A stretch of DNA of 64,000 bases from Fomitopsis serialis (taxonomy: Eukaryota; Basidiomycota; Agaricomycetes; Polyporales; Fomitopsidaceae): assembly GCF_022376445.1 (NCBI RefSeq), contig NW_025955128.1, positions 1 through 64,000 on the forward strand, given 5' to 3'. Position numbers and translations under genes: made by a program. Positions 17,979-29,218 of this stretch are shown in pieces. Every line of letters begins with the position of its first letter. The stretch's first letter is position 1. Below the pieces are notes generated by a model that was not told the DNA's origin, made no database searches, and saw only the letters and a program-made list of their open reading frames with translations.

Positions 17979-20168
17979 CTACGGGAGATAAACTAGTCGC
18001 ACGGGAGGACACGGCAGACGGTGGAACTTAGACGTGAAGGTTTTGACATAAAATTTGAGTGCAGTGGCCTCGACGGCGTCGAAGTGCCCCACATCATCGC
18101 ATTCCCCGATGGTGACTGCATTGGCTCGTAATACCTCGGGGACCTGTGGCCACGCGCTCATGACCAATAACAAAGCCTGAAGGTTGCCCCGGCGACTCTG
18201 CCACCCTTCTTCGCACGTCGGTGTCCAACAGAAGGCGGGGGAGGACACGTCAATGACCGAGAACGCGGTTTGATGAACCGACGACTGCCACACTCGAGCA
18301 ACGCGCTGTTCACGCTCCCACTTGCGAAACACGTCGTCCGAATAGTCGACTAGAATATTGTCGAGGGCGCGCAACTCGCAACGCCAGTTTGTCTCGTAAA
18401 GCTCCCAAACCACCATAGCCAAGAACGATTTGTTGGTTCTTGCGGCATCGAGATTGACTTTCATCCCACGAAACCACGACACGTCGGCTTCGTTGTACGA
18501 CAGCAGAGATCCGCCTTTGGCGAACAGCCGACGTACGCACTGCAGTCGCTCGTAGAGGTAGTCACGCTTTGGCACCTCCGAAGTTGTCTCATGGCCCGGT
18601 AATCCATCCTCGCTCCTAGTCTTGTCCGTCGCGTCCGGCTCGTCGAGACGATAATCGCCGTAAAGGGCATGACGCCAATCGGCGATGCGCAGGGGTGTGC
18701 CACTGATGGCGGAGTCGACGAGGCGGTGCCTGCAGTACTCACGAATGCGCGTGAAGTTGTGCAGATAACGCGTCTTCTGACTGCTAGCCTGGAAGATGAC
18801 GAAGGGCGGTGGGAAGTAGTATTCGGCCGCCACACGCGGCGGGAACGGCAATGGAGGAAGCTCGGACAGAGCAGCCGTCCAGTTGGGACTGAGGGTGACG
18901 AGCTCGGCAGGAGGAGCCTTGAACGTAGTCGCGGGGTGTGGATCCGGCGACTTCTCCGTCACTCGGCCTCTGCGCGAGCGTTTACCCCTCTTCTTGGCGT
19001 TGCGTGTCTGTGGCGGCGCCTTGGAACCAGACAGCATTGCCGGGGTCGAGTCATCGCCCTTGAACCGTTTCGCTTCCCTCTCCGTGCCGTCGGGCCGAGC
19101 GACGACCTGGAGCCGAGGCAACGCCGACGAGCACAGTAGGTTGCTCACAAAGAGCACCGAGGGCTGCGTCCAGCGAGCCGGGTCTTGATGCGTCCCGTCG
19201 GGGTCATACCATGACTTTGGAATGCGGGGCCAGGCGGGTTCATCCTTCAGCTCAGTATTCCACGCACGAGGTTTCACCACCTTGCGGATATAGAGATTGG
19301 CAGTCCATGGCCGGATGTACCAGAACGGCAACCCTATGCGATAGAGGAGTTGGGCGGCGGCGTCATTGCGGACGAAAGCGCCGAGGACCTTCAAGACAGG
19401 GTGAACACGGTTGTGTGTGTTGGCGATGCGACTGACTAGGACAGTGAAGTAGACCGTCAGACCAGAAAGCTCGAGAATGAGACGGTGAGCCATTCTCGCC
19501 GTCACCAGGGCGTGCTGCTCGGTGCAGGGGAGCGCTCTGAGACGGTCGACAGCATTCCTCAGCAGGAGGCATAGCATCGCACCCAGCCTCCTATCAACAC
19601 CCGATGAGGCATTGAAAGTCGCTGGGTCGCGACGCCGAGCGGCGGTTTCGGCCTGCTCGTAACGCGAAATGACCGCGACTGCGATTGAATATAACTCGTT
19701 CAGGACCTCCCCCTTCAGATATCCAAACCCCAGAACCCCGCATGTCTTCGATTCCTCCCACGGATCGTACCCAAGACCATCGTACACTTGCGACCCCGGA
19801 GCATACTCTGAGTTGCTAGTGGGAATACATGCGTGGTGAACGCAATGTTCGTTGTATAGCTGAGGCCAGCGTGTGTACTCCTGGGGTCCCCAGAGGCCGT
19901 CGCTGAACGTCACGATCTCGCGCCCAGAGATACGCGGAAATTCGGGAATCCAGGTCATACAAGGGGTGGTGATGATGTTGCAGTCGTCGTCTGCGTCTGC
20001 TGCACACTCGGCGTCGAATGGACCCAGGTGCGAGCGCCGTTCTATATCACAACACGCTCATTAACGAACCATAGAGATCAGAGCTTGTGTAGCCATACCT
20101 GACGCAGGCGAGGGGGTCAGCCCGAAGTTGAAGATTTGTATGGGTCGGTGAAGATTGGCATCCGCCAT
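17979..20168 (-). CDS. hypothetical protein, 710 aa, basidiomycete-specific type
   Basis: The first exon, 20168-20099, encodes MADANLHRPIQIFNFG. It joins in phase 1 across a 57-nt intron (GTATGG...GATATAG, branch-like TTAATGA) to one long exon, 20041-17979. The product is 710 aa. An acidic N-terminal stretch (about residues 36-45) is followed by a helical domain containing GLPFWYIRPWTANLYIRK, a Lys/Arg-rich patch (KKRGKRSRRGR, about residue 380) typical of a nuclear signal or nucleic-acid-binding linker, then a Trp/Tyr-rich C-terminal domain. I recall large families of similar uncharacterised proteins in polypores but cannot name a domain. A fragment resembling its C-terminus (EAxAxxFYVKxF) appears near 29110, suggesting decayed relatives nearby. 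Confidence 0.8.
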
Positions 20169-20712: not shown

Positions 20713-20962
20713 GCAAGCGCTTGTTCAAGTTGTTGGCGTCTACCCGGCCACCCGAAGTCGCCTTGAGCGCTTGTGCCCCCACCACGCTCCTACCGTCTAC
20801 GTATACGCCGACCTCCCTTCCTATGCCGACCTCTGAGTCTGGCCTCTCTCGAAAGCGTTCGTGCCTTGCTATGTCTACCTCAGCCTCTCTCTCTATGCGT
20901 CAGTTCTGGTATCACAGATGTCCGCTTTGGTTTCGACCATGCGTTGATATCTGGGCCGGGGA
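20713..20962 (+). repeat. left arm of the duplicated segment, interrupted by the LTR element
   Basis: Matches 39053-39273 with substitutions and small indels (shared AAGCGCTTGTT, GAGTCGCCTTGAGCGCTTGTG-like blocks and GTTTCGACCATGCGTTG). The match stops exactly at the 5' LTR and resumes after the 3' LTR at 28269, so the element was inserted into this segment. Confidence 0.85.
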
Positions 20963-21165
20963 TGTAACGGATATTCCCGTTACGGTATATCTTATCTCGT
21001 ATGATTGTTCTTGTTTGTTCGAGGGCTCGTATGGCACGCCAGCGCACCTATGAGACCTCAGTCCTTTACCATCCTCATCGCCCCATGTATGCTACGTGTA
21101 GACAGTCCCTCTGAATAGAGACTGGGTACAGCGCATACCGGGCCCGAGGATTAAGGGACGCTACA
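20963..21165 (+). repeat. 5' LTR, 203 bp
   Basis: Starts TGTAACGGATATTCCCGTTA (itself a short inverted repeat, TAACGG/CCGTTA) and ends GGGACGCTACA. I found no difference from the 3' LTR when reading the two side by side. Confidence 0.95.
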
Positions 21166-21177
21166 CTTTTTTGCGCT

Positions 21178-21198
21178 CCAGAACAGCTTCTGTTCTGG
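21178..21198 (+). other. perfect hairpin in the element leader
   Basis: CCAGAACAG, loop CTT, CTGTTCTGG: a perfect 9-bp stem with a 3-nt loop, 12 nt after the 5' LTR, where a primer binding site would normally start. No TGG-initiated tRNA complement lies directly next to the LTR. The hairpin could act in priming, dimerisation or packaging; this is inference. Confidence 0.75.
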
Positions 21199-21286
21199 GG
21201 ACTATCTACTCTAGGCAACAACCTGGAAACTTCGAATTTCTATGCTTTACATCAAAACCTAGTCGACTTCGCAACCACTCAAGAAG

Positions 21287-24200
21287 ATGGCTGGATCGAC
21301 AACCCACTCTCCCAAGCACTCACGTAGTACTCGGGAGGCCCACCGCGCGAAGGTCGATGCGAAGGTCGATGGAATTCTTGACAGTTTTGCGAAGTTCTTG
21401 AAGAGTATTCCGGTCGAGACACGAGCTACCCCCGATAGGCGGTTCCGGACACTCGATGACTCGATGAAGCATCTAGATGATGCTATCACATCGTTCAGAC
21501 GCTCCGTGGAGCAGGACAACGAGTCCAGACGTCACCGTCGCACGACCTGCCGGACTGAGCTCTCCGACCCCGAGAACTCGTCCGGAGCACTCGCGGAGCA
21601 GGCACCGTCCGACCGCGAGGTCGAACGCACAGCACACGCAGAACTGTTCGAGCCCAAGGTCGAGCCCATTCAGAGCTGCCAGGAGAACCCGACTCCGCCT
21701 GTTCTAACCGAGCCACAGGAGCTGGAAAGCTCTCCGACGAGTGGTGCGCGCACCGAGATCGACAGCGCTGCCGCTGTTGAGCCCGTGTCTGAGCCCAAGG
21801 GGCCGCGTCCTGAGCAGATCGAGCCCGACATCGAGACTGCTCAGAGATGTCCGGAGACTCCGTCTCCGATTGCTCCCAGTGAGCTGACCAAACTCGGTAC
21901 CACACTCAAGAGTGGTGCACGCGCCCGGTTCGACGACGCCGCCGTCGCCGAGACCGAGCCCAAGCCCCAGTTGTCCGACAAGGCGACTCGGCCCTACGCC
22001 CGGGAAGGCATAGGGACGCGACCTTACGTCGCATCCCCGGATGTAGGCGAGCTTTTGCTCGTAGATCCACATGTCGCGTGCTCAGAAATGAGCCGCGACT
22101 CAAAATATATGATCGCGCCGGACGACGTGCCCGACGCGGCCAGCATCGAGCTCGACACTCAACGCGTCGAGCGTCACGCGCCCGCGCCGAGAGCGAGCAC
22201 TCCCAGAGTTAGCGCTGGAAGTGCTCCTCACAATGCTAACCGCCACTTCGACCTTCACTCTGGCAGCCACCGCCCGCGGGCAACCGCATTCCAACCCGGG
22301 TTGCACTTCCCAACGGAAGTGCGAGCCGCGGACTGTCCTTGGACAGTTGTACCCTTTGCGGTTCAGCTAAAGGACCGACCGGTCAGTATCGACTGCCATC
22401 TCGCGGTCGACACCCCCTTTGGTGACGACTACTCGCGCGCGGCCGCTACCCAGGAAGACTTGCACTTCCTACCGGAAGTGCAAGACTTCGGACTCTCCAA
22501 GACGGTTGAACCGCACTCGGTATCGTTGGCACGCCTCGACCGGTCCCCAGAACAGGTCGACTGCGCTCAACCTCAGGATAGGCACGAGCGTCCGTCTGGC
22601 GGGCCAGACGCACACGCTGTTCCAATGGACGTGCAAACTTGCGTTCGCGGATCCGGATGGCCAGCTGAACTACTGACAGTTCAACTGGCGGCGCCCAATG
22701 ATCTGGCACCTCACGGTGCCAGACCGCGATCTACTTCCTATATGACCACGATCCTCGACTCTCGGAACCTCGCTTCGGACTCGAGAAGCTCTGTCCTCGA
22801 CCCCGGCACCATCTGTTCGACCCTCGAAGGTTCTGGCGACACGCAACAGAGCCGCGCGGCCCAGGACTCGTACGACGCGCGTGCAAGTCCAGCGCCGAGC
22901 AACAAGGTCGAGAAGAACGTGCAGAACGGGGAGCGAACAGGAACCAGGGAGATGAGGAAGAGAGAGGAGGGGGAAGGGTGTGGGGCGAGCAAGAAGAACG
23001 AGCACAGAGGCTCAATGGACGCAGGTACGCCCGTGTTGAGCGTATCCCACTCGCCACCGCCTCCTTCTCCAATGCCCACACCGGCACACGTATCGACGAC
23101 CACAGAGGTCGTCGTGCGTGTCGCAGGCCATGGAGACGGCATGTACGCGTTGCGGGACGACCTAATGGTCGTGCCCATCGCCCCGGTTGTGCTACGGGAC
23201 GACCTTATGGTCGTACCACCACCGTCGCAAAGCGACACAGTGGACGTTCAGTCCCGCATATCGGACACGTCCCGACCTTTGCTGACCGACCAGCACACTG
23301 TACCGACCAGTGAAGGTACGTCCTCGATGGACGTACCTGTCTCGATACCTCCATCCCCAATGCCCGCGCCAGCAGGCGTATCGACGAACGAGAAGTCCGT
23401 CGTACGCACTGCTGGCCACGAAGATGGCATGTATGTGTTGCGGGACGACCTAAGGGTCGTACCCCCCGCCCCTCGAGGCGGTATGCCTGTAACACGGGAC
23501 GACCTCGCGGTCGTACCGTCTATTCCGCTAGGCGGCACGGCGGACGCGCAGCATTGCACGTCCGAAGTGCCCCATCGAGCATTCACCAGCCGTCGCGTAG
23601 CGAACTCGAAGCTCGATGGTATGTCCATACTGGACGTACCCAGTCCTTCCCCGGTTCTCTCGCTAGTACCCGAGCCAGTGTGCATGTCGACGAACGAGAA
23701 GGCTGTCGTGCGCACTACTGGTCACGGAAACGGCAGGTACACGTTGCGGGACAACCTCGCGGTCGTTCCGTCCACTTCGCAAGACGACACGGCGGATGCA
23801 CGGTGCTGCGTGCCCGCCTTGTCCCGACCTGTCATGACCGACCCACACGAAGGATCGATCAGTGAAGAGGTCGTTGTGCGTGCCGCAGGCCATGAAGACG
23901 GCACTTTCGTGTTGCGGGACGACCTGATGGTCATACCCGCCACTTCTCGAGGCAGTACACTTGCGATACGGGACGACCTCGCGGTCGTACCATCCAATCT
24001 GCAAGGCGACACGGCGGACGCGCAGCGCTGCACGTCCGACGTTTCCCAGACAGCTTTCATTAGCTGTCGAGTAGCGGGTTCGAAACTTGAAGCGTGCGTA
24101 TCGACGAACACGGAGATTGTCGTGCGCACCGCTGGCCACGAACACAATACAATCATGCCCCAGAACGACCTTGAGGTCGTACCCGAGCGTTCGAGTTCCT

Positions 24201-26494
24201 CGCTACCGTCTCCACTCCCATTACGGTACGACCTCGCGGTCGTACTCTTCAATTGGCAAAGCGAGACGACGACCGAGCGCCATCCCACAATCTACGTACC
24301 CTGCTCGGTCACGAACGACAGTCGCGACGTAGAGGGTACGTCGAATTCATGGCTCGATATACACGCTACCGGCAAGCACTGGCACAGAGGGTCGAGAAGT
24401 ACAAGTACGCTCTCGGCGGACGTACTTACCTCGACGCCTGCTGCACCCATGCTCGTGTCCGTGCCCACGCTAGCGAGCGTCACGGTGAACGAAGAACCTG
24501 TCGCGCGCAACACCCACGGCTCGTCGGGCCACCGTCTCTTCATCTCCGCCTTCATGATCACTTGTGATCATGGAGATGACATTACGCTCACATCTCGGGA
24601 CGACCTTCAGGCCGTACCGGGACCCGTCATTCGCCACGGCGAAGTCGGGTACGCACAGTGCTCTCAGCAGCCCGAGATCGCCGTCGGGTCTGCTCAATGC
24701 CACCTGGAGGCACCATCCCAAGGTGCCCCGGCCCAAGCGATGAAGCCAGGCATCACCCCGAAGGATGATGCACGCGCCGAGCTCGACACGTCCGTCATCG
24801 AGCTCGCATCCGAGCTGAACGAGTGGTGCGTTGAGTCGACGCATCTCCGCACTCGGGAGGGCATAGGCACACAGTACCATAATAGTACTGTGTACAGCGG
24901 GGACGAACCCGTACGTGTAGATACACCCGTCGCGCGCTCAGAGATGAGCCGCGACACAAAAAATGTATTATTATTATCGGACGACGTGCCTGCCACGACG
25001 AGCAGCCTGCTCGACGCGACGCGCGACGCGCTCAACGCTACAGGCGTTGGGTGTCACGAGCCCGTGGCGAGCGACCCGAGCGCTAGCGCCCACCGCACTA
25101 CACTCGACCGCCACCACCGAACCCTCGTTCTTGACCTCTTCCACTCTCTGGGCAGCCACCTCGAGCGCCCGTCTGGCGAGCCAGACGCGCGCGCCGCCAC
25201 GCGAGTGCGAACTCGCGTTCGCAACTGGCTGGTTGACTTAATGCCAGCCCAGTCAGTGGCAGCCGACGACCTGGTACCTCGCGGTACCAAATCGCCACTT
25301 CCTCCCTCCCCGGCTCCTCACCTCACCACTTTCGGTTCGCGCATTCACTCTGGCGACCGCTACCGCGGCTTTGGCGACATGCTACCCAGCAGCGCGACTC
25401 AGGACTTGAACACCGCGCGTTCAAGCCCAGCGCCGAGCTGCAAGGCCGAGCGGACCACGAGGAACGCGGATAGTGGAGGCTGCAAGGAGATCCCGAAGGA
25501 ACAAGAAGGGTGCGAGGAACGGACGAAGGGTCAGGGGGAGGAAGGGTGCGGGGCGAGTAGAGAAAGCGAGCAGGAAGGCTCGCAAAATACAGGTACGCCC
25601 TTACTGGACGTACTCAACTCGCCTCCGCCTGTGTCAGTGCCCGCGCCAGCGTGCGTGTCGACGAACATGGAGTTCGTCGTGCGCACTACGGACCATGAAG
25701 ATGGCACCTCCGCCCCCAGGGACGACTGCGAAGTCGTACCCAATGTCCCGCACGGCAGTGCATCCGTGCTGCGGGACGACCTCGCGGTCGTCCCACTCAT
25801 CTCGCAATACGACATGGCGGACGTGCAGTACTGCACGTCCGACGTGCCTCACCATCCCACGACCGGATGTCGAGTAGCGGGTACGCCCCAGATGGACGTA
25901 CCCACCTCGACACTTCATCCCTTGCCCGCGCCCATACCAACAAGCGTAGCGACGAACGTGAAGTTCGTCGTACGCATGGCTGGCCAAGAGGACGGCATGT
26001 TCACGCTGCCGGACGACCTATTGGTCGTGCTTTCCGATACGCAAGGCCGCGCGCCAGTATTAGAGGACGACCGCGAGGTCGTACATTTCAATGCGCAAGG
26101 CGGCATGATGGATCAGCAGCGATGCAGGTCAGAGATGCCCCATCCAGCGTCGACCGTCCGTTGTGCAGCGCGTACGTCTAGCCTGCCGCTAGACGTACAC
26201 GGGGCTTATGACCACCCCTCGTCGATTGCCCCTGACTTCTTGTCTGGCAGCTATATCGCTCGTCCACCCACAACGCAACACGGCCTGCACGTCCTCACGG
26301 AAGTGCAGGCCCTGACTGGCCCAGTGCAGCTGAACCTCCTTTGGTTCAGCTGGCAGAGTCGTGGGTTCACCTCGACGACAGATCCAGCAGCCCCCAATCG
26401 CGCGCGGCCGCATTCCGGGAAGACTTGTACTCCCAACCGGAAGTGCGAGCCCCCGGTAGCGTCAAGACAGCTGAACACCTCGCTGTTCAACTGA
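21287..26494 (+). CDS. giant repeat protein of the LTR element (ORF1, 1735 aa)
   Basis: A single uninterrupted frame starts MAGSTTHSPKHSRSTREAHR. The N-terminal ~90 residues look helical and charged (KVDGILDSFAKFLK, MKHLDDAITSFRRSV). The rest is acidic, Pro/Ser/Thr-rich and repetitive. A short motif close to VVRTAGHEDGMYVLRDDLxVVP recurs more than ten times. Larger blocks recur as two long units in ORF1: SEMSRDSK/SEMSRDTK and EGIGTRPY/EGIGTQYH mark the same place in each. A third unit continues in ORF2. No enzymatic or Gag motif is recognised. At the DNA level nearly every motif copy is a perfect inverted repeat, so some of the amino-acid repetition may reflect selection on, or a mutational origin of, nucleic-acid structure. 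Whether the protein is made is unknown. Confidence 0.75.
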   Translation: MAGSTTHSPKHSRSTREAHRAKVDAKVDGILDSFAKFLKSIPVETRATPDRRFRTLDDSMKHLDDAITSFRRSVEQDNESRRHRRTTCRTELSDPENSSGALAEQAPSDREVERTAHAELFEPKVEPIQSCQENPTPPVLTEPQELESSPTSGARTEIDSAAAVEPVSEPKGPRPEQIEPDIETAQRCPETPSPIAPSELTKLGTTLKSGARARFDDAAVAETEPKPQLSDKATRPYAREGIGTRPYVASPDVGELLLVDPHVACSEMSRDSKYMIAPDDVPDAASIELDTQRVERHAPAPRASTPRVSAGSAPHNANRHFDLHSGSHRPRATAFQPGLHFPTEVRAADCPWTVVPFAVQLKDRPVSIDCHLAVDTPFGDDYSRAAATQEDLHFLPEVQDFGLSKTVEPHSVSLARLDRSPEQVDCAQPQDRHERPSGGPDAHAVPMDVQTCVRGSGWPAELLTVQLAAPNDLAPHGARPRSTSYMTTILDSRNLASDSRSSVLDPGTICSTLEGSGDTQQSRAAQDSYDARASPAPSNKVEKNVQNGERTGTREMRKREEGEGCGASKKNEHRGSMDAGTPVLSVSHSPPPPSPMPTPAHVSTTTEVVVRVAGHGDGMYALRDDLMVVPIAPVVLRDDLMVVPPPSQSDTVDVQSRISDTSRPLLTDQHTVPTSEGTSSMDVPVSIPPSPMPAPAGVSTNEKSVVRTAGHEDGMYVLRDDLRVVPPAPRGGMPVTRDDLAVVPSIPLGGTADAQHCTSEVPHRAFTSRRVANSKLDGMSILDVPSPSPVLSLVPEPVCMSTNEKAVVRTTGHGNGRYTLRDNLAVVPSTSQDDTADARCCVPALSRPVMTDPHEGSISEEVVVRAAGHEDGTFVLRDDLMVIPATSRGSTLAIRDDLAVVPSNLQGDTADAQRCTSDVSQTAFISCRVAGSKLEACVSTNTEIVVRTAGHEHNTIMPQNDLEVVPERSSSSLPSPLPLRYDLAVVLFNWQSETTTERHPTIYVPCSVTNDSRDVEGTSNSWLDIHATGKHWHRGSRSTSTLSADVLTSTPAAPMLVSVPTLASVTVNEEPVARNTHGSSGHRLFISAFMITCDHGDDITLTSRDDLQAVPGPVIRHGEVGYAQCSQQPEIAVGSAQCHLEAPSQGAPAQAMKPGITPKDDARAELDTSVIELASELNEWCVESTHLRTREGIGTQYHNSTVYSGDEPVRVDTPVARSEMSRDTKNVLLLSDDVPATTSSLLDATRDALNATGVGCHEPVASDPSASAHRTTLDRHHRTLVLDLFHSLGSHLERPSGEPDARAATRVRTRVRNWLVDLMPAQSVAADDLVPRGTKSPLPPSPAPHLTTFGSRIHSGDRYRGFGDMLPSSATQDLNTARSSPAPSCKAERTTRNADSGGCKEIPKEQEGCEERTKGQGEEGCGASRESEQEGSQNTGTPLLDVLNSPPPVSVPAPACVSTNMEFVVRTTDHEDGTSAPRDDCEVVPNVPHGSASVLRDDLAVVPLISQYDMADVQYCTSDVPHHPTTGCRVAGTPQMDVPTSTLHPLPAPIPTSVATNVKFVVRMAGQEDGMFTLPDDLLVVLSDTQGRAPVLEDDREVVHFNAQGGMMDQQRCRSEMPHPASTVRCAARTSSLPLDVHGAYDHPSSIAPDFLSGSYIARPPTTQHGLHVLTEVQALTGPVQLNLLWFSWQSRGFTSTTDPAAPNRARPHSGKTCTPNRKCEPPVASRQLNTSLFN
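23157..26082 (+). repeat. recurrent ACGACC-N4-GGTCGT inverted repeats
   Basis: Perfect copies of ACGACC, four-base loop, GGTCGT start at 23157, 23199, 23445, 23499, 23973, 24165, 24228, 25776, 26013 and 26067. The loop varies (TAAT, TTAT, TAAG, TCGC, TTGA, TATT, GCGA). A copy at 25722-25737 has both arms changed (ACGACT...AGTCGT), so pairing is kept. The stem grows to 9 bp at 25773-25794. Each encodes DDLxVV or a variant. Confidence 0.9.
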
Positions 26495-27486
26495 CAGGCC
26501 CGCAATACGACCTTGACCTGCTCGACGAAGTGTTGGACCTCAATCCCGACTTGTTGAGCAGTCACCACCGTCTTCGCGACCCCGGCGCCTCTGCGAGTGC
26601 GCAGCCCGACGCTTGCGTAGCCCCAACGAACACGCGAGTTCGGGATTGCGAGGCGACTACTGCACTACCGACAGTGCAGCAGCCGGCGCTTACGGACTCC
26701 GACCGACCAGAACGGCTGTCCGACCGTCAACCCGACGAGAACTTCACAGTTCTCATCGAGGGTTCGATCCTAGGGACCCCTACCAAACTCCCCATCACCT
26801 CCTTCGCGGCCCCCGACATCGGTGGCGACTACGAGAGGCGTCACGAGTCGGAGCTCGTGCACGCACCCCGAAGATCGAGTGCAGGACGGACGGAGGATCA
26901 GGGCGGGGTCGAGGTGGAGGTGGAGGAGATTGCAGAGGCAGGAGAGGCAGAGGAGGAAGGTCAGACAGAAGGAAGAGAGGGGGAAGGGCACGGCGTAGGC
27001 AAGGAAGACAAGCTTCCGTGCTCGGAAGACAAAAGTACGCCCGTACTGGACGTACCTCCCCCGCTTATATCGCCACCCCTTACACCGTCATCACCACTAT
27101 CGACGGCCACGACAACCACACTGGTTGTCGTGGCAATCACCGTGCACAATGGTGGTACGGGCAGACCACGGGGCGACCTACAGGTTGCTCCCGGCACGGC
27201 TAGGCATTGCGGTACGATCGGCGAGCGAGTCTGCTCGTCCGATGTATCCGACATCTTCACAGCTCACGCGCAGACGACGAGTTCCTCGCTCGACATCTAC
27301 GCTGAGGTGCTTAGCAGTGGATCAAACAACGAGTACCTCAAGGTACTCGCTGCGCATTCACCACCTCCTATCCCACTACCACCACCTGTGACGATCACGA
27401 CAATCAACGTGGTTGTCGTGGCAGTCACCACGTATGACGGTGGTACCAATGGCCTATGGATGTATTACGAGCTGCACCCGGCATGA
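26341..27486 (+). CDS. second ORF of the LTR element (ORF2, -1 frame, 381 codons)
   Basis: This frame overlaps the end of ORF1 by about 150 nt and lies in the -1 frame relative to it. Its start, SRAAAFREDLYSQPEV, matches SRAAATQEDLHFLPEV in ORF1, so it is the frame-shifted continuation (third unit) of the same repeat protein. A Glu/Gly-rich low-complexity part follows, then STPVLDVPPPL, equivalent to GTPLLDVLNSPPP in ORF1. The frame change falls on a 10-bp hairpin at 26327-26352. Either a disabling indel or translational frameshifting would explain it. After 27486 the frame breaks again (pieces at 27563-27904). Confidence 0.5.
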   Translation: MVQLAESWVHLDDRSSSPQSRAAAFREDLYSQPEVRAPGSVKTAEHLAVQLTGPQYDLDLLDEVLDLNPDLLSSHHRLRDPGASASAQPDACVAPTNTRVRDCEATTALPTVQQPALTDSDRPERLSDRQPDENFTVLIEGSILGTPTKLPITSFAAPDIGGDYERRHESELVHAPRRSSAGRTEDQGGVEVEVEEIAEAGEAEEEGQTEGREGEGHGVGKEDKLPCSEDKSTPVLDVPPPLISPPLTPSSPLSTATTTTLVVVAITVHNGGTGRPRGDLQVAPGTARHCGTIGERVCSSDVSDIFTAHAQTTSSSLDIYAEVLSSGSNNEYLKVLAAHSPPPIPLPPPVTITTINVVVVAVTTYDGGTNGLWMYYELHPA

Positions 27487-28053
27487 CGATGCATCGCGGT
27501 ACAATCGGTGAGCTTATTGCTCGACCGATGTATCTGATCGTTCTGCAGCCCACGCGCAGACGTTGGGCTTCCCCGTCGACGTCCACGATGAGGAAGTTGA
27601 CGGTGATTCGAGAAGCGAGTACCTCGTGGTACTCGTGCCAGTATCATTACCCTGCATTCCGATACCACCACCGATTGGTCACATCCAGTATGGTCGCGCA
27701 TCGACTCAGGGAGTGCTGAGCTCGCTGGCGAATGCGAGTACATTACAGCTCGGGTTGCGACCACCCTCACTGGTCCCATCACCATCATCCATGATGTATC
27801 TGGAGAATTCACAGTTCTCCGACCTGGGTTGCTATCATCATTCCGGGCTGCATAACTCCATTGAGTTATGTATGACGAGAGTGGACGGCCATGCTGCTCA
27901 CTGACACGAAGTAGCTTGTCGTTGTCTACAGTATGGCACCACCTCGGTCTGGCCTATTGCTACCACCGTTGTGTGGTAGCATGTACTTTCCTTTTCATTT
28001 CATTTCCTCTTTCTTTGTTTCTCTGGTTATCTCTGGGACCCGTGGTCGTGTCC

Positions 28054-28065
28054 AGTGGGGGAGGG
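28054..28065 (+). other. polypurine tract
   Basis: AGTGGGGGAGGG, purine except for one T, abuts the 3' LTR. This is the expected site for plus-strand priming in LTR retrotransposons and fixes the element's orientation as plus. Confidence 0.85.
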
Positions 28066-28268
28066 TGTAACGGATATTCCCGTTACGGTATATCTTATCT
28101 CGTATGATTGTTCTTGTTTGTTCGAGGGCTCGTATGGCACGCCAGCGCACCTATGAGACCTCAGTCCTTTACCATCCTCATCGCCCCATGTATGCTACGT
28201 GTAGACAGTCCCTCTGAATAGAGACTGGGTACAGCGCATACCGGGCCCGAGGATTAAGGGACGCTACA
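28066..28268 (+). repeat. 3' LTR, 203 bp
   Basis: Reads identically to the 5' LTR and ends GCTACA, followed directly by the second GGGGA target-site copy (28269-28273). Confidence 0.95.
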
Positions 28269-29218
28269 GGGGAACTCCTGCTCTTGTATGAGCAGTTGAG
28301 TGAACCTCACCGTTTTCACGAGATGCCGACCCTCCGGGCTCCAACATTCTACCCCACGAAGGCTTGAAGATGCTTAGCACCATTAAGTATCAGCGATGTG
28401 TGCCGCCTAGAGCCCGATGAACGCTGTACGCGCGATGGTCCCTTCGATGTTGTACCGAAGACATCAAAGGGCTGACAACCGATTCTCGATAATAGGCCCT
28501 GCTGTCCCCGTTTTGCAAAAACATGGTCGACGAATCACTCGCGTGTGACCTACCCCGCCGTAGCCGTGCGTGCAGGAACTGCACAGGTGGGTCTGATGCG
28601 ACCAGAGCAGTTCACATCTCCTGACGCCTCAGATCCATGCCCGCGACCAACGTACGCACCGCGTCTGACCTCGCATGCTCAATTTGCCTCGAGCGGACGG
28701 ACGAACCGGCGGGCGGGCGAATGAACAGACGGATGAGTGAGCGGATGTACGGACGGACGAGTTTGCGGGCGAGTTGGTTCTTTGCGAACGCACGACCTCT
28801 ACGGGACGAATTGGCGTCGCGAGTTGTGCGCCCTTGACTGTCTTCTCGCCGACCACACCAAGGATATCTCCGTCAAAAGTGGGAGCCCGAGCAACTAATC
28901 GTCACGATCTGGCACGGCTCGGCGCTCGAATCCGCCTTCTCTGCCGTCGTCGTCGAAGACTCCTCGCTTTGCTGGACCGTTGCCGGAGACCCCCAGTGGT
29001 GACATCGGCGAGCGAACATCTGCGCCTTCTTGGTCGCAATGAACGCCTGGCCGGACTCCACCCCCCTCCCCCGCTGCGAATGCAGATAAAGGGCGTTGAT
29101 ACGTGCGAGGACGTCGACGCTTTCCAATGAAACGGAGGCTGTCGCCATCCACTTCTACGTCAAGATATTCGATCGCGAGCCGCCGCTCAGCAGACAATGC
29201 AAGCCTGTGCCACATGAG

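Follow-up and report, generated by a model that had tools for sequence, protein, structure and literature searches.

The interior of a long terminal repeat (LTR) retrotransposon of the basidiomycete Fomitopsis serialis is saturated with short perfect hairpins. The element occupies positions 20963-28268 of the 64,000-nucleotide stretch of DNA analysed (hereafter the window; contig NW_025955128.1, positions 1 to 64,000, forward strand), with an LTR pair identical over 203/203 bp, TG...CA ends and a GGGGA target-site duplication (TSD) on either side. Hairpin saturation extends beyond the window element and is a trait of a retrotransposon clade, as Gypsy-type relatives that bear reverse transcriptase (RT) and have a nearly identical primer-binding site (PBS) are also saturated. 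The chances are about even that the hairpin string is kept by selection so that the genomic RNA folds on itself, with shielding and compaction as the predicted benefits.

Hairpin density in the element interior

Hairpins were counted across the interior (21169-28065) as non-overlapping perfect stems with loops of 0-8 nt, against 200 shuffles per control. There are 57, 33, 23, 13 and 6 stems of at least 6, 7, 8, 9 and 10 bp, respectively, compared with means of 15.0, 3.9, 1.1, 0.3 and 0.1 in dinucleotide shuffles. An earlier note, made from the letters of this DNA alone, had claimed perfect hairpins far beyond chance; the excess proved stronger than claimed, with 0/200 shuffles reaching any of the observed counts. 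Seven other window stretches of equal length hold 1-8 stems of at least 7 bp and 0-4 of at least 8 bp.

Coding alone is inadequate to explain the hairpins, as the note had also argued. Within the open reading frame (ORF; 21287-26494), 44, 25, 17, 9 and 5 stems of at least 6, 7, 8, 9 and 10 bp compare with 14.6, 4.5, 1.3, 0.5 and 0.2 in codon-preserving shuffles (0/200 reach any), and the hairpins run on past the ORF into the tail (26495-28065), where there are seven stems of at least 7 bp vs 0.8 in shuffles (0/200 reach this). The single tail stem of at least 10 bp is matched by 2/200 shuffles. Repeated peptide motifs (RDDLxVVP-like) or codon bias could create inverted repeats as a by-product of the protein, and some hairpins do lie inside repeated units and most within the long frame. 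Such an explanation is very improbable, given that the hairpins are lost in codon-preserving shuffles and extend beyond the ORF, that all three pairing registers are used (72/123/149, homologous hairpins of 13 copies each being counted) and that amino acids are weakly constrained (see below). A protein-driven origin as the main cause is ruled out by the shuffles, the registers and the weak constraint.

Conservation among genomic copies

The assembly searched comprises 66 Mb in 806 contigs, with the window in contig C77. The LTR start sequence occurs 75 times (62 exactly; none for the reversed control), and by inspection these starts form 32 pairs and 11 singles. Twenty loci were taken from places similar to window positions 22303-22603, giving 18 complete interiors and one partial (L017); L019 was omitted, its second LTR lying beyond the stretch taken. 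Including the window, the sample consists of 20 sequences of 68-100% identity, which cover 19 of the 32 LTR pairs and include a single partial copy. All 20 are hairpin-dense, none lacking the feature, with 27-39 stems of at least 7 bp and 17-28 of at least 8 bp (shuffles ~4 and ~1); the flanks are sparse, with 14 stems of at least 8 bp in 50.5 kb vs 477 in 126.8 kb of element at the same loci.

Both LTR ends were resolved in ten of the 18 loci with two LTR starts, and in these, as in the window element, the two LTRs are identical and the 5-bp duplications match, indicating that diverged lineages among them moved recently; seven loci could not be delimited (six with other end letters, L009 cut off) and L024 was mis-ended. 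The RVT_1 and RVT_2 matches listed, 147 and 104 respectively (lower bounds; 150/159 RVT_1 candidates were scored), all fall outside the 32 LTR pairs, as judged by inspection. In one LTR pair (C257, 285604-299523) the two LTRs are separated by 13.7 kb, roughly double the normal spacing, possibly through a nested insertion.

Stems were compared between 11 representative copies (1877 hairpin comparisons, 16209 pair cells). Divergence is 6.8 and 7.4% in the two stem arms, 18.2% in flanks and 24.8% in loops. Complementary double changes number 298 vs 27.4 expected (~11-fold), although the sequences counted are related, so that the events are not independent. At least two Watson-Crick types are present in 107/1058 stem column pairs vs 23-38 with slid partners, and 80% of cells are paired vs 19-30%, in a comparison that favours the unslid version because the column pairs were defined from these same copies. 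Such a pair of at least two Watson-Crick types is found at 60/103 varying hairpin locations, and synonymous divergence is lower within stems in 14/16 copy pairs. Regular spacing of the hairpins was not found in four of five copies (fraction of random placements no less even 0.25-0.61); the value for the fifth, L010, is 0.036.

Folding energy and comparison with viral genomes

Folding excess was calculated for 240-nt fragments vs dinucleotide shuffles in 16 copies, four near-identical sisters being left out. It amounts to 15.6-23.3% in these copies, compared with 0.4% in 109 flank fragments and 3.0% in 141 fragments from ten RT loci, and to 15.5, 15.7 and 18.2% in three ORFs when codon-preserving shuffles are used instead. 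Scrambling only the hairpins reduces the excess from 16.1/17.2/22.2% to 6.5/9.0/8.5%, whereas scrambling an equal amount of non-hairpin sequence reduces it only to 13.3/15.0/18.2%; about half or more of the excess is lost with the hairpins. The earlier note had offered RNA folding, a dimeric protein and template switching as explanations, of which RNA folding is the best supported, through folding energy, stem conservation, complementary double changes and loop lengths (see below).

A genome-wide energy excess over order-shuffled controls, as in genome-scale ordered RNA structure (GORS), is thus present. The likeness is to the GORS of positive-strand RNA viruses, with a whole-genome excess over dinucleotide shuffles and consecutive stem-loops through coding sequence. 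PMC7642675, in the part available, gives an excess of 7.5-10.7% for hepatitis C virus, 12.5% for human pegivirus, ~15% for SARS-CoV-2 and 23.4% as the highest value, and describes the pairings as poorly conserved between related viruses. Here, by contrast, the hosts of the structure are LTR retrotransposons, with 15.6-23.3% in RT-less copies and ~28-32% in the RT-bearing L039, L040 and L047, a comparison that is approximate as fragments were 240 nt here vs 350 in the available part of PMC7642675. Window-family stems are also unlike those of viral GORS in that they are short and perfect and, from copy to copy, conserved with covariation. No hairpin-saturated or GORS-like LTR retrotransposon was found among the titles and abstract starts listed by searches of an open-licence PMC library.

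Genome-wide RNA folding is known in some RNA viruses, where its purpose is debated; here it occurs in a retrotransposon clade, at equal or higher strength. The diverged copies within one genome make the same fold comparable across dozens of natural variants, and RT-bearing elements of that genome without such structure serve as controls. The system could show whether folding answers RNA interference (RNAi), and whether selection sees RNA, complementary DNA (cDNA) or both. In Ty1 and retroviral RNAs, the structured regions (packaging, dimerisation) are local, unlike the present case in which the whole interior is affected. The use of RNA structure or Gag-RNA contacts by an LTR element is described in the available part of PMC8396678.

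RT-bearing relatives

Six places carry a PBS variant with a single base changed, and three of these (C12, C374 and C805) have RVT_1 on the same strand, 4.0-4.5 kb downstream. In L039 (C374) and L040 (C12), the 3' part of the LTR plus the PBS is 77.8% identical to the window over 72 columns, and these loci have 37 and 35 stems of at least 8 bp in ~7.5 kb, with energy excesses of 27.8 and 29.0%. The pol gene of L040 encodes, in order, RVT_1, RT_RNaseH, Integrase_H2C2, rve and SH3_Tf2-1, and carries 21 stems of at least 8 bp vs 0.97 in codon-preserving shuffles. L047 (93% protein identity) has 17 such stems and an excess of 31.7%; between L040 and L047, divergence is 3-7% in stems and 13% in flanks. 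The signal declines in pol genes at greater distance (see below for L041 and L048): excess is 13.9% in L042, with three stems of at least 8 bp, and sense-strand values are 5.5, 6.5, 10.5 and 7.9% in L043, L044, L045 and L046, respectively. At four other RT loci the excess is 1.2-4.7%.

The pol domain order of L040, its Tf2-type SH3 domain and the nearness of its LTR 3' part and PBS to those of the window element point to Ty3/Gypsy. The window element has LTR ends and a PBS in common with an RT-bearing element, as a non-autonomous Ty3/Gypsy partner does, but unlike autonomous Ty3/Gypsy elements it is without RT, RNase H and integrase domains; the other RT loci examined are without hairpins. It also resembles non-autonomous large retrotransposon derivatives (LARD) and terminal-repeat retrotransposons in miniature (TRIM) in its intact LTRs, TSD, conserved sequences at the putative PBS and polypurine tract (PPT) positions, absence of any RT found and RT-bearing relatives whose PBS is almost identical. 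The window element differs in its long open frame, LARD interiors usually being regarded as non-coding, and in its hairpin saturation.

Candidate molecule and strand under selection

Under the proposed mechanism, natural selection would keep the interior of an RT-less LTR retrotransposon as a string of short perfect hairpins, and the genomic RNA would fold on itself as a genome-scale ordered structure. Folding may hide the RNA from host RNA-surveillance pathways, RNAi among them, and may compact it for packaging into particles from RT-bearing Gypsy-type relatives acting as helpers in trans. RNA, rather than cDNA or both strands, would be the selected molecule. Plus-strand RNA is the natural candidate for this role.

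Loop lengths peak at 4 nt and are depleted at 0-1 nt, where shuffles are flat, which favours single-strand hairpins over duplex palindromes. The earlier suggestion that the hairpins bind a dimeric protein is weakly supported. Taken as palindromic sites for a DNA-binding dimer, it draws on the perfect symmetry and the lack of a G.U preference. In this form it is hardly credible as the explanation, however, given that 4-nt loops are favoured and 0-1-nt loops depleted relative to shuffles and that the stems are diverse; no common site was noticed in the hairpin list, on which no motif search was made. GNRA loops outnumber GNYA loops, occupying 28.6/78 locations vs 6.7-8.7 expected, or 8.7/42 after paralogue collapse (shuffled hairpins ~2.3). 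A preference for GNRA over GNYA is RNA-like.

Several observations weigh against selection on folded genomic RNA. GNRA loops are found in both orientations and energy excess is alike on both strands. Stems do not tolerate G.U better than A.C (456 vs 711 pairwise cells; by location 170 vs 226, A.C/G.U 1.33, bootstrap 1.13-1.57) and polarised recent changes stand at 39 vs 39; as selection on plus-strand RNA should favour G.U, the absent preference argues against plus-strand RNA alone. The A+C-rich composition of the plus strand accounts for some of the surplus of A.C, though not for the absent G.U preference, and near-perfect hairpins contain 73 A.C vs 30 G.U where shuffles contain 54 vs 34, indicating a partly compositional origin. 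A minus-strand function is not claimed, given this compositional part and the equal polarised changes. Recent changes per column are nearly as frequent in stems as elsewhere (0.134 vs 0.155), so that stem constraint is visible mainly over longer times. Among the relatives, the RT-bearing L041 and L048 hold excesses of 21.1 and 17.5% with few perfect hairpins (two stems of at least 8 bp each). Of 30 L040 hairpins, a single one is perfect in L041, with 22% divergence in stems and 25% in flanks; hairpin positions thus turn over at this distance while the folding excess persists. The frame upstream of L039 pol is without a Pfam match, and no Gag was identified in it, so that the relatives are putative helpers.

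Some of these points agree with selection of the hairpins in cDNA as a single strand, or equally on the two strands (sense plus antisense RNA, or RNA followed by minus-strand cDNA), where they may keep strands from annealing or protect cDNA during reverse transcription. Energy excess alike on both strands, the lack of a G.U advantage over A.C, GNRA-type loops in both orientations and loops that invert and persist are all consistent with such selection. Nevertheless, this alternative is rather doubtful: strand symmetry is weak evidence, since a perfect Watson-Crick hairpin is identical on either strand, the percentage excess is greater on the plus strand in 9/11 sequences (mostly slightly), and the GNRA preference has the RNA-like character noted above. 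A further reading, of less than even probability, is that the genomes of the clade are strictly Watson-Crick hairpin strings forming on both strands, with non-autonomous members being almost pure fold with an open frame, the protein hardly mattering, and with a predicted role as armour against sense-antisense pairing and RNAi. In this reading, RT-bearing members exceed every RNA virus excess given in the available part of PMC7642675.

The hairpins could also be scattered packaging or Gag-binding signals, serving as repeated recognition sites for helper Gag. RT-less copies would need packaging in trans, and several hairpin motifs repeat within the element. This is unlikely to be their main role, as the stems are diverse with no single loop or stem motif, the loops are more variable than the flanks and invert, and the pol gene of RT-bearing relatives is equally full of hairpins.

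How hairpins change

Exact reverse complements are found in eight homologous loop pairs, with two locations overlapping, vs 2.5 expected (3/2000 permutations reach this); four reverse-complement loop pairs have at least three differences, vs 1.0 expected (30/2000 permutations). Between L014 and L016 there are 19 differing sites, and these cluster only once, at the 27106-27134 location, where the sequence inside a 12-bp stem is exactly inverted. This inversion is a strand exchange at the hairpin, at the DNA or the reverse-transcription step, and its kind is seen in 1/17 close copy pairs. It is very recent, the two copies otherwise differing at 16 sites. Hairpin-loop inversions occur in chloroplast DNA, which the L014/L016 case resembles in having a loop reversed between intact arms, but here the change is in retrotransposon copies.

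Template switching by RT could make and repair perfect inverted repeats without benefit to the element, an origin that the earlier note had raised. The eight exact loop inversions and the L014/L016 case bear it out to the extent that strand exchange across a hairpin is possible. As an explanation of the hairpins it is improbable. Complementary double changes number 298 vs 1599 one-sided changes in the 16209 pair cells, which disfavours fast arm-to-arm correction because that would make complementary double changes common. One-step clustered change (at least three changes in one arm, none in the other) occurs in 1/440 comparisons, the close-pair inversion is as infrequent as stated, and stems are conserved within the family. 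Recombination hotspots at hairpins were rejected: among 209 breakpoint switches, 112 were usable (no nearby gaps, interval at most 60), and 23 of these intervals touch hairpins vs 24.9 expected.

The long open frame

Pfam assigns no family to the 1735-aa frame or to a 381-aa frame. The long frame is kept, the length of 86/115 gaps in six comparisons being divisible by three, and frames among the copies reach 2210 codons. Outside stems, 13/16 pairs have dN/dS values of 0.59-0.77; the remaining three, all within L023-L027, have 0.43-0.50. Neutral change, simulated under the observed mutation spectrum with stops excluded, yields 0.76 (0.66-0.86, 20 runs); 7/16 observed values fall inside this range and 9/16 below, under a local-identity filter that pushes dN/dS downward. 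In the window lineage, therefore, the frame stays open while amino acids are weakly constrained, and selection on the interior appears to act chiefly on a fold that can be translated. The open frame may serve avoidance of mRNA decay, or may encode a disordered protein.

Homologues of the family frames were found only in Fomitopsis serialis (four matches among 7982 candidates scored, one match in a second search), by a word-based search that may miss distant relatives, and a search of the PDB gave no matches. L021-L028 carry a conserved C-terminal domain of unassigned kind, with P0003 as the sole relative found; no trace of it is present in the window copy and 11 other sequences.

Element architecture and coordinates

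The features of the window element are as follows.

20958-20962, no strand: target-site duplication, left copy GGGGA
20963-21165, plus: 5' LTR, TG...CA, 203 bp same as the 3' LTR, with its own 5'-end hairpin at 20964-20983
21166-21179, plus: putative PBS CTTTTTTGCGCTCC, role inferred from position
21178-21198, plus: hairpin just within the 5' LTR boundary, 9-bp stem, 3-nt loop, perfect in nine copies
21287-26494, plus: open frame of 1735 codons without a Pfam domain
22303-22322, plus: hairpin, 8 bp, 4-nt loop, equivalent place paired in other copies
22459-22484, plus: hairpin, 11 bp, 4-nt loop
22702-22723, plus: hairpin, 9 bp, 4-nt loop
23314-23338, plus: hairpin, 10 bp, 5-nt loop
24553-24572, plus: hairpin, 9 bp, 2-nt loop
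25199-25218, plus: hairpin, 8 bp, GCGA loop; a two-sided change in L023 preserves pairing
25272-25289, plus: hairpin, 7 bp; homologous loops TCGC/TCAC/TCCC where copies share the stem core
25818-25841, plus: perfect palindrome, 24 nt
25950-25970, plus: hairpin, 8 bp; a two-sided change in L021 preserves pairing
26172-26198, plus: hairpin, 11 bp, 5-nt loop
26327-26352, plus: hairpin, 10 bp, 6-nt loop
27106-27134, plus: hairpin, 13 bp, 3-nt loop; loop inverted here between the near-identical L014 and L016
27851-27870, plus: hairpin, 8 bp, in the tail 3' of the ORF; two-sided changes in L023 and L026 preserve pairing
27958-27981, plus: hairpin, 9 bp, 6-nt loop
28055-28065, plus: putative PPT GTGGGGGAGGG, role inferred from position
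28066-28268, plus: 3' LTR, with hairpin at 28067-28086
28269-28273, no strand: target-site duplication, right copy GGGGA

All 11 hairpins cited as examples in the earlier note are present, with several coordinates or stem lengths amended: 22703-22724 spans 22702-22723, the 22-nt palindrome at 25819-25840 is one of 24 nt at 25818-25841, and 27959-27980 is 27958-27981 with a 9-bp stem, while the stems at 24553-24572, 26172-26198 and 27106-27134 are 9, 11 and 13 bp rather than 8, 10 and 12 bp. At 27958-27981, complementary double changes, one or two per copy, occur in five copies, each of which also has at least one broken pair. A scan of window positions 20900-28320 against Rfam gave nothing above gathering score, with one sub-threshold match (E 0.23).

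The putative PBS and PPT positions are both occupied by conserved sequences; that at the putative PBS is common to the family and differs by one base in RT-bearing relatives. A usual PBS begins with TGG, complementary to the tRNA 3' end, and the putative PBS at 21166-21179 does not. On the minus strand, a 659-aa open frame without a Pfam match (17979-19958) lies beside the element. The 5' end of the LTR is itself a hairpin (20964-20983, 28067-28086), whose sequence recurs at the 75 LTR starts with up to three mismatches allowed. In the RT-bearing L039 and L040, a hairpin with a different stem occupies the same place at the LTR 5' end.

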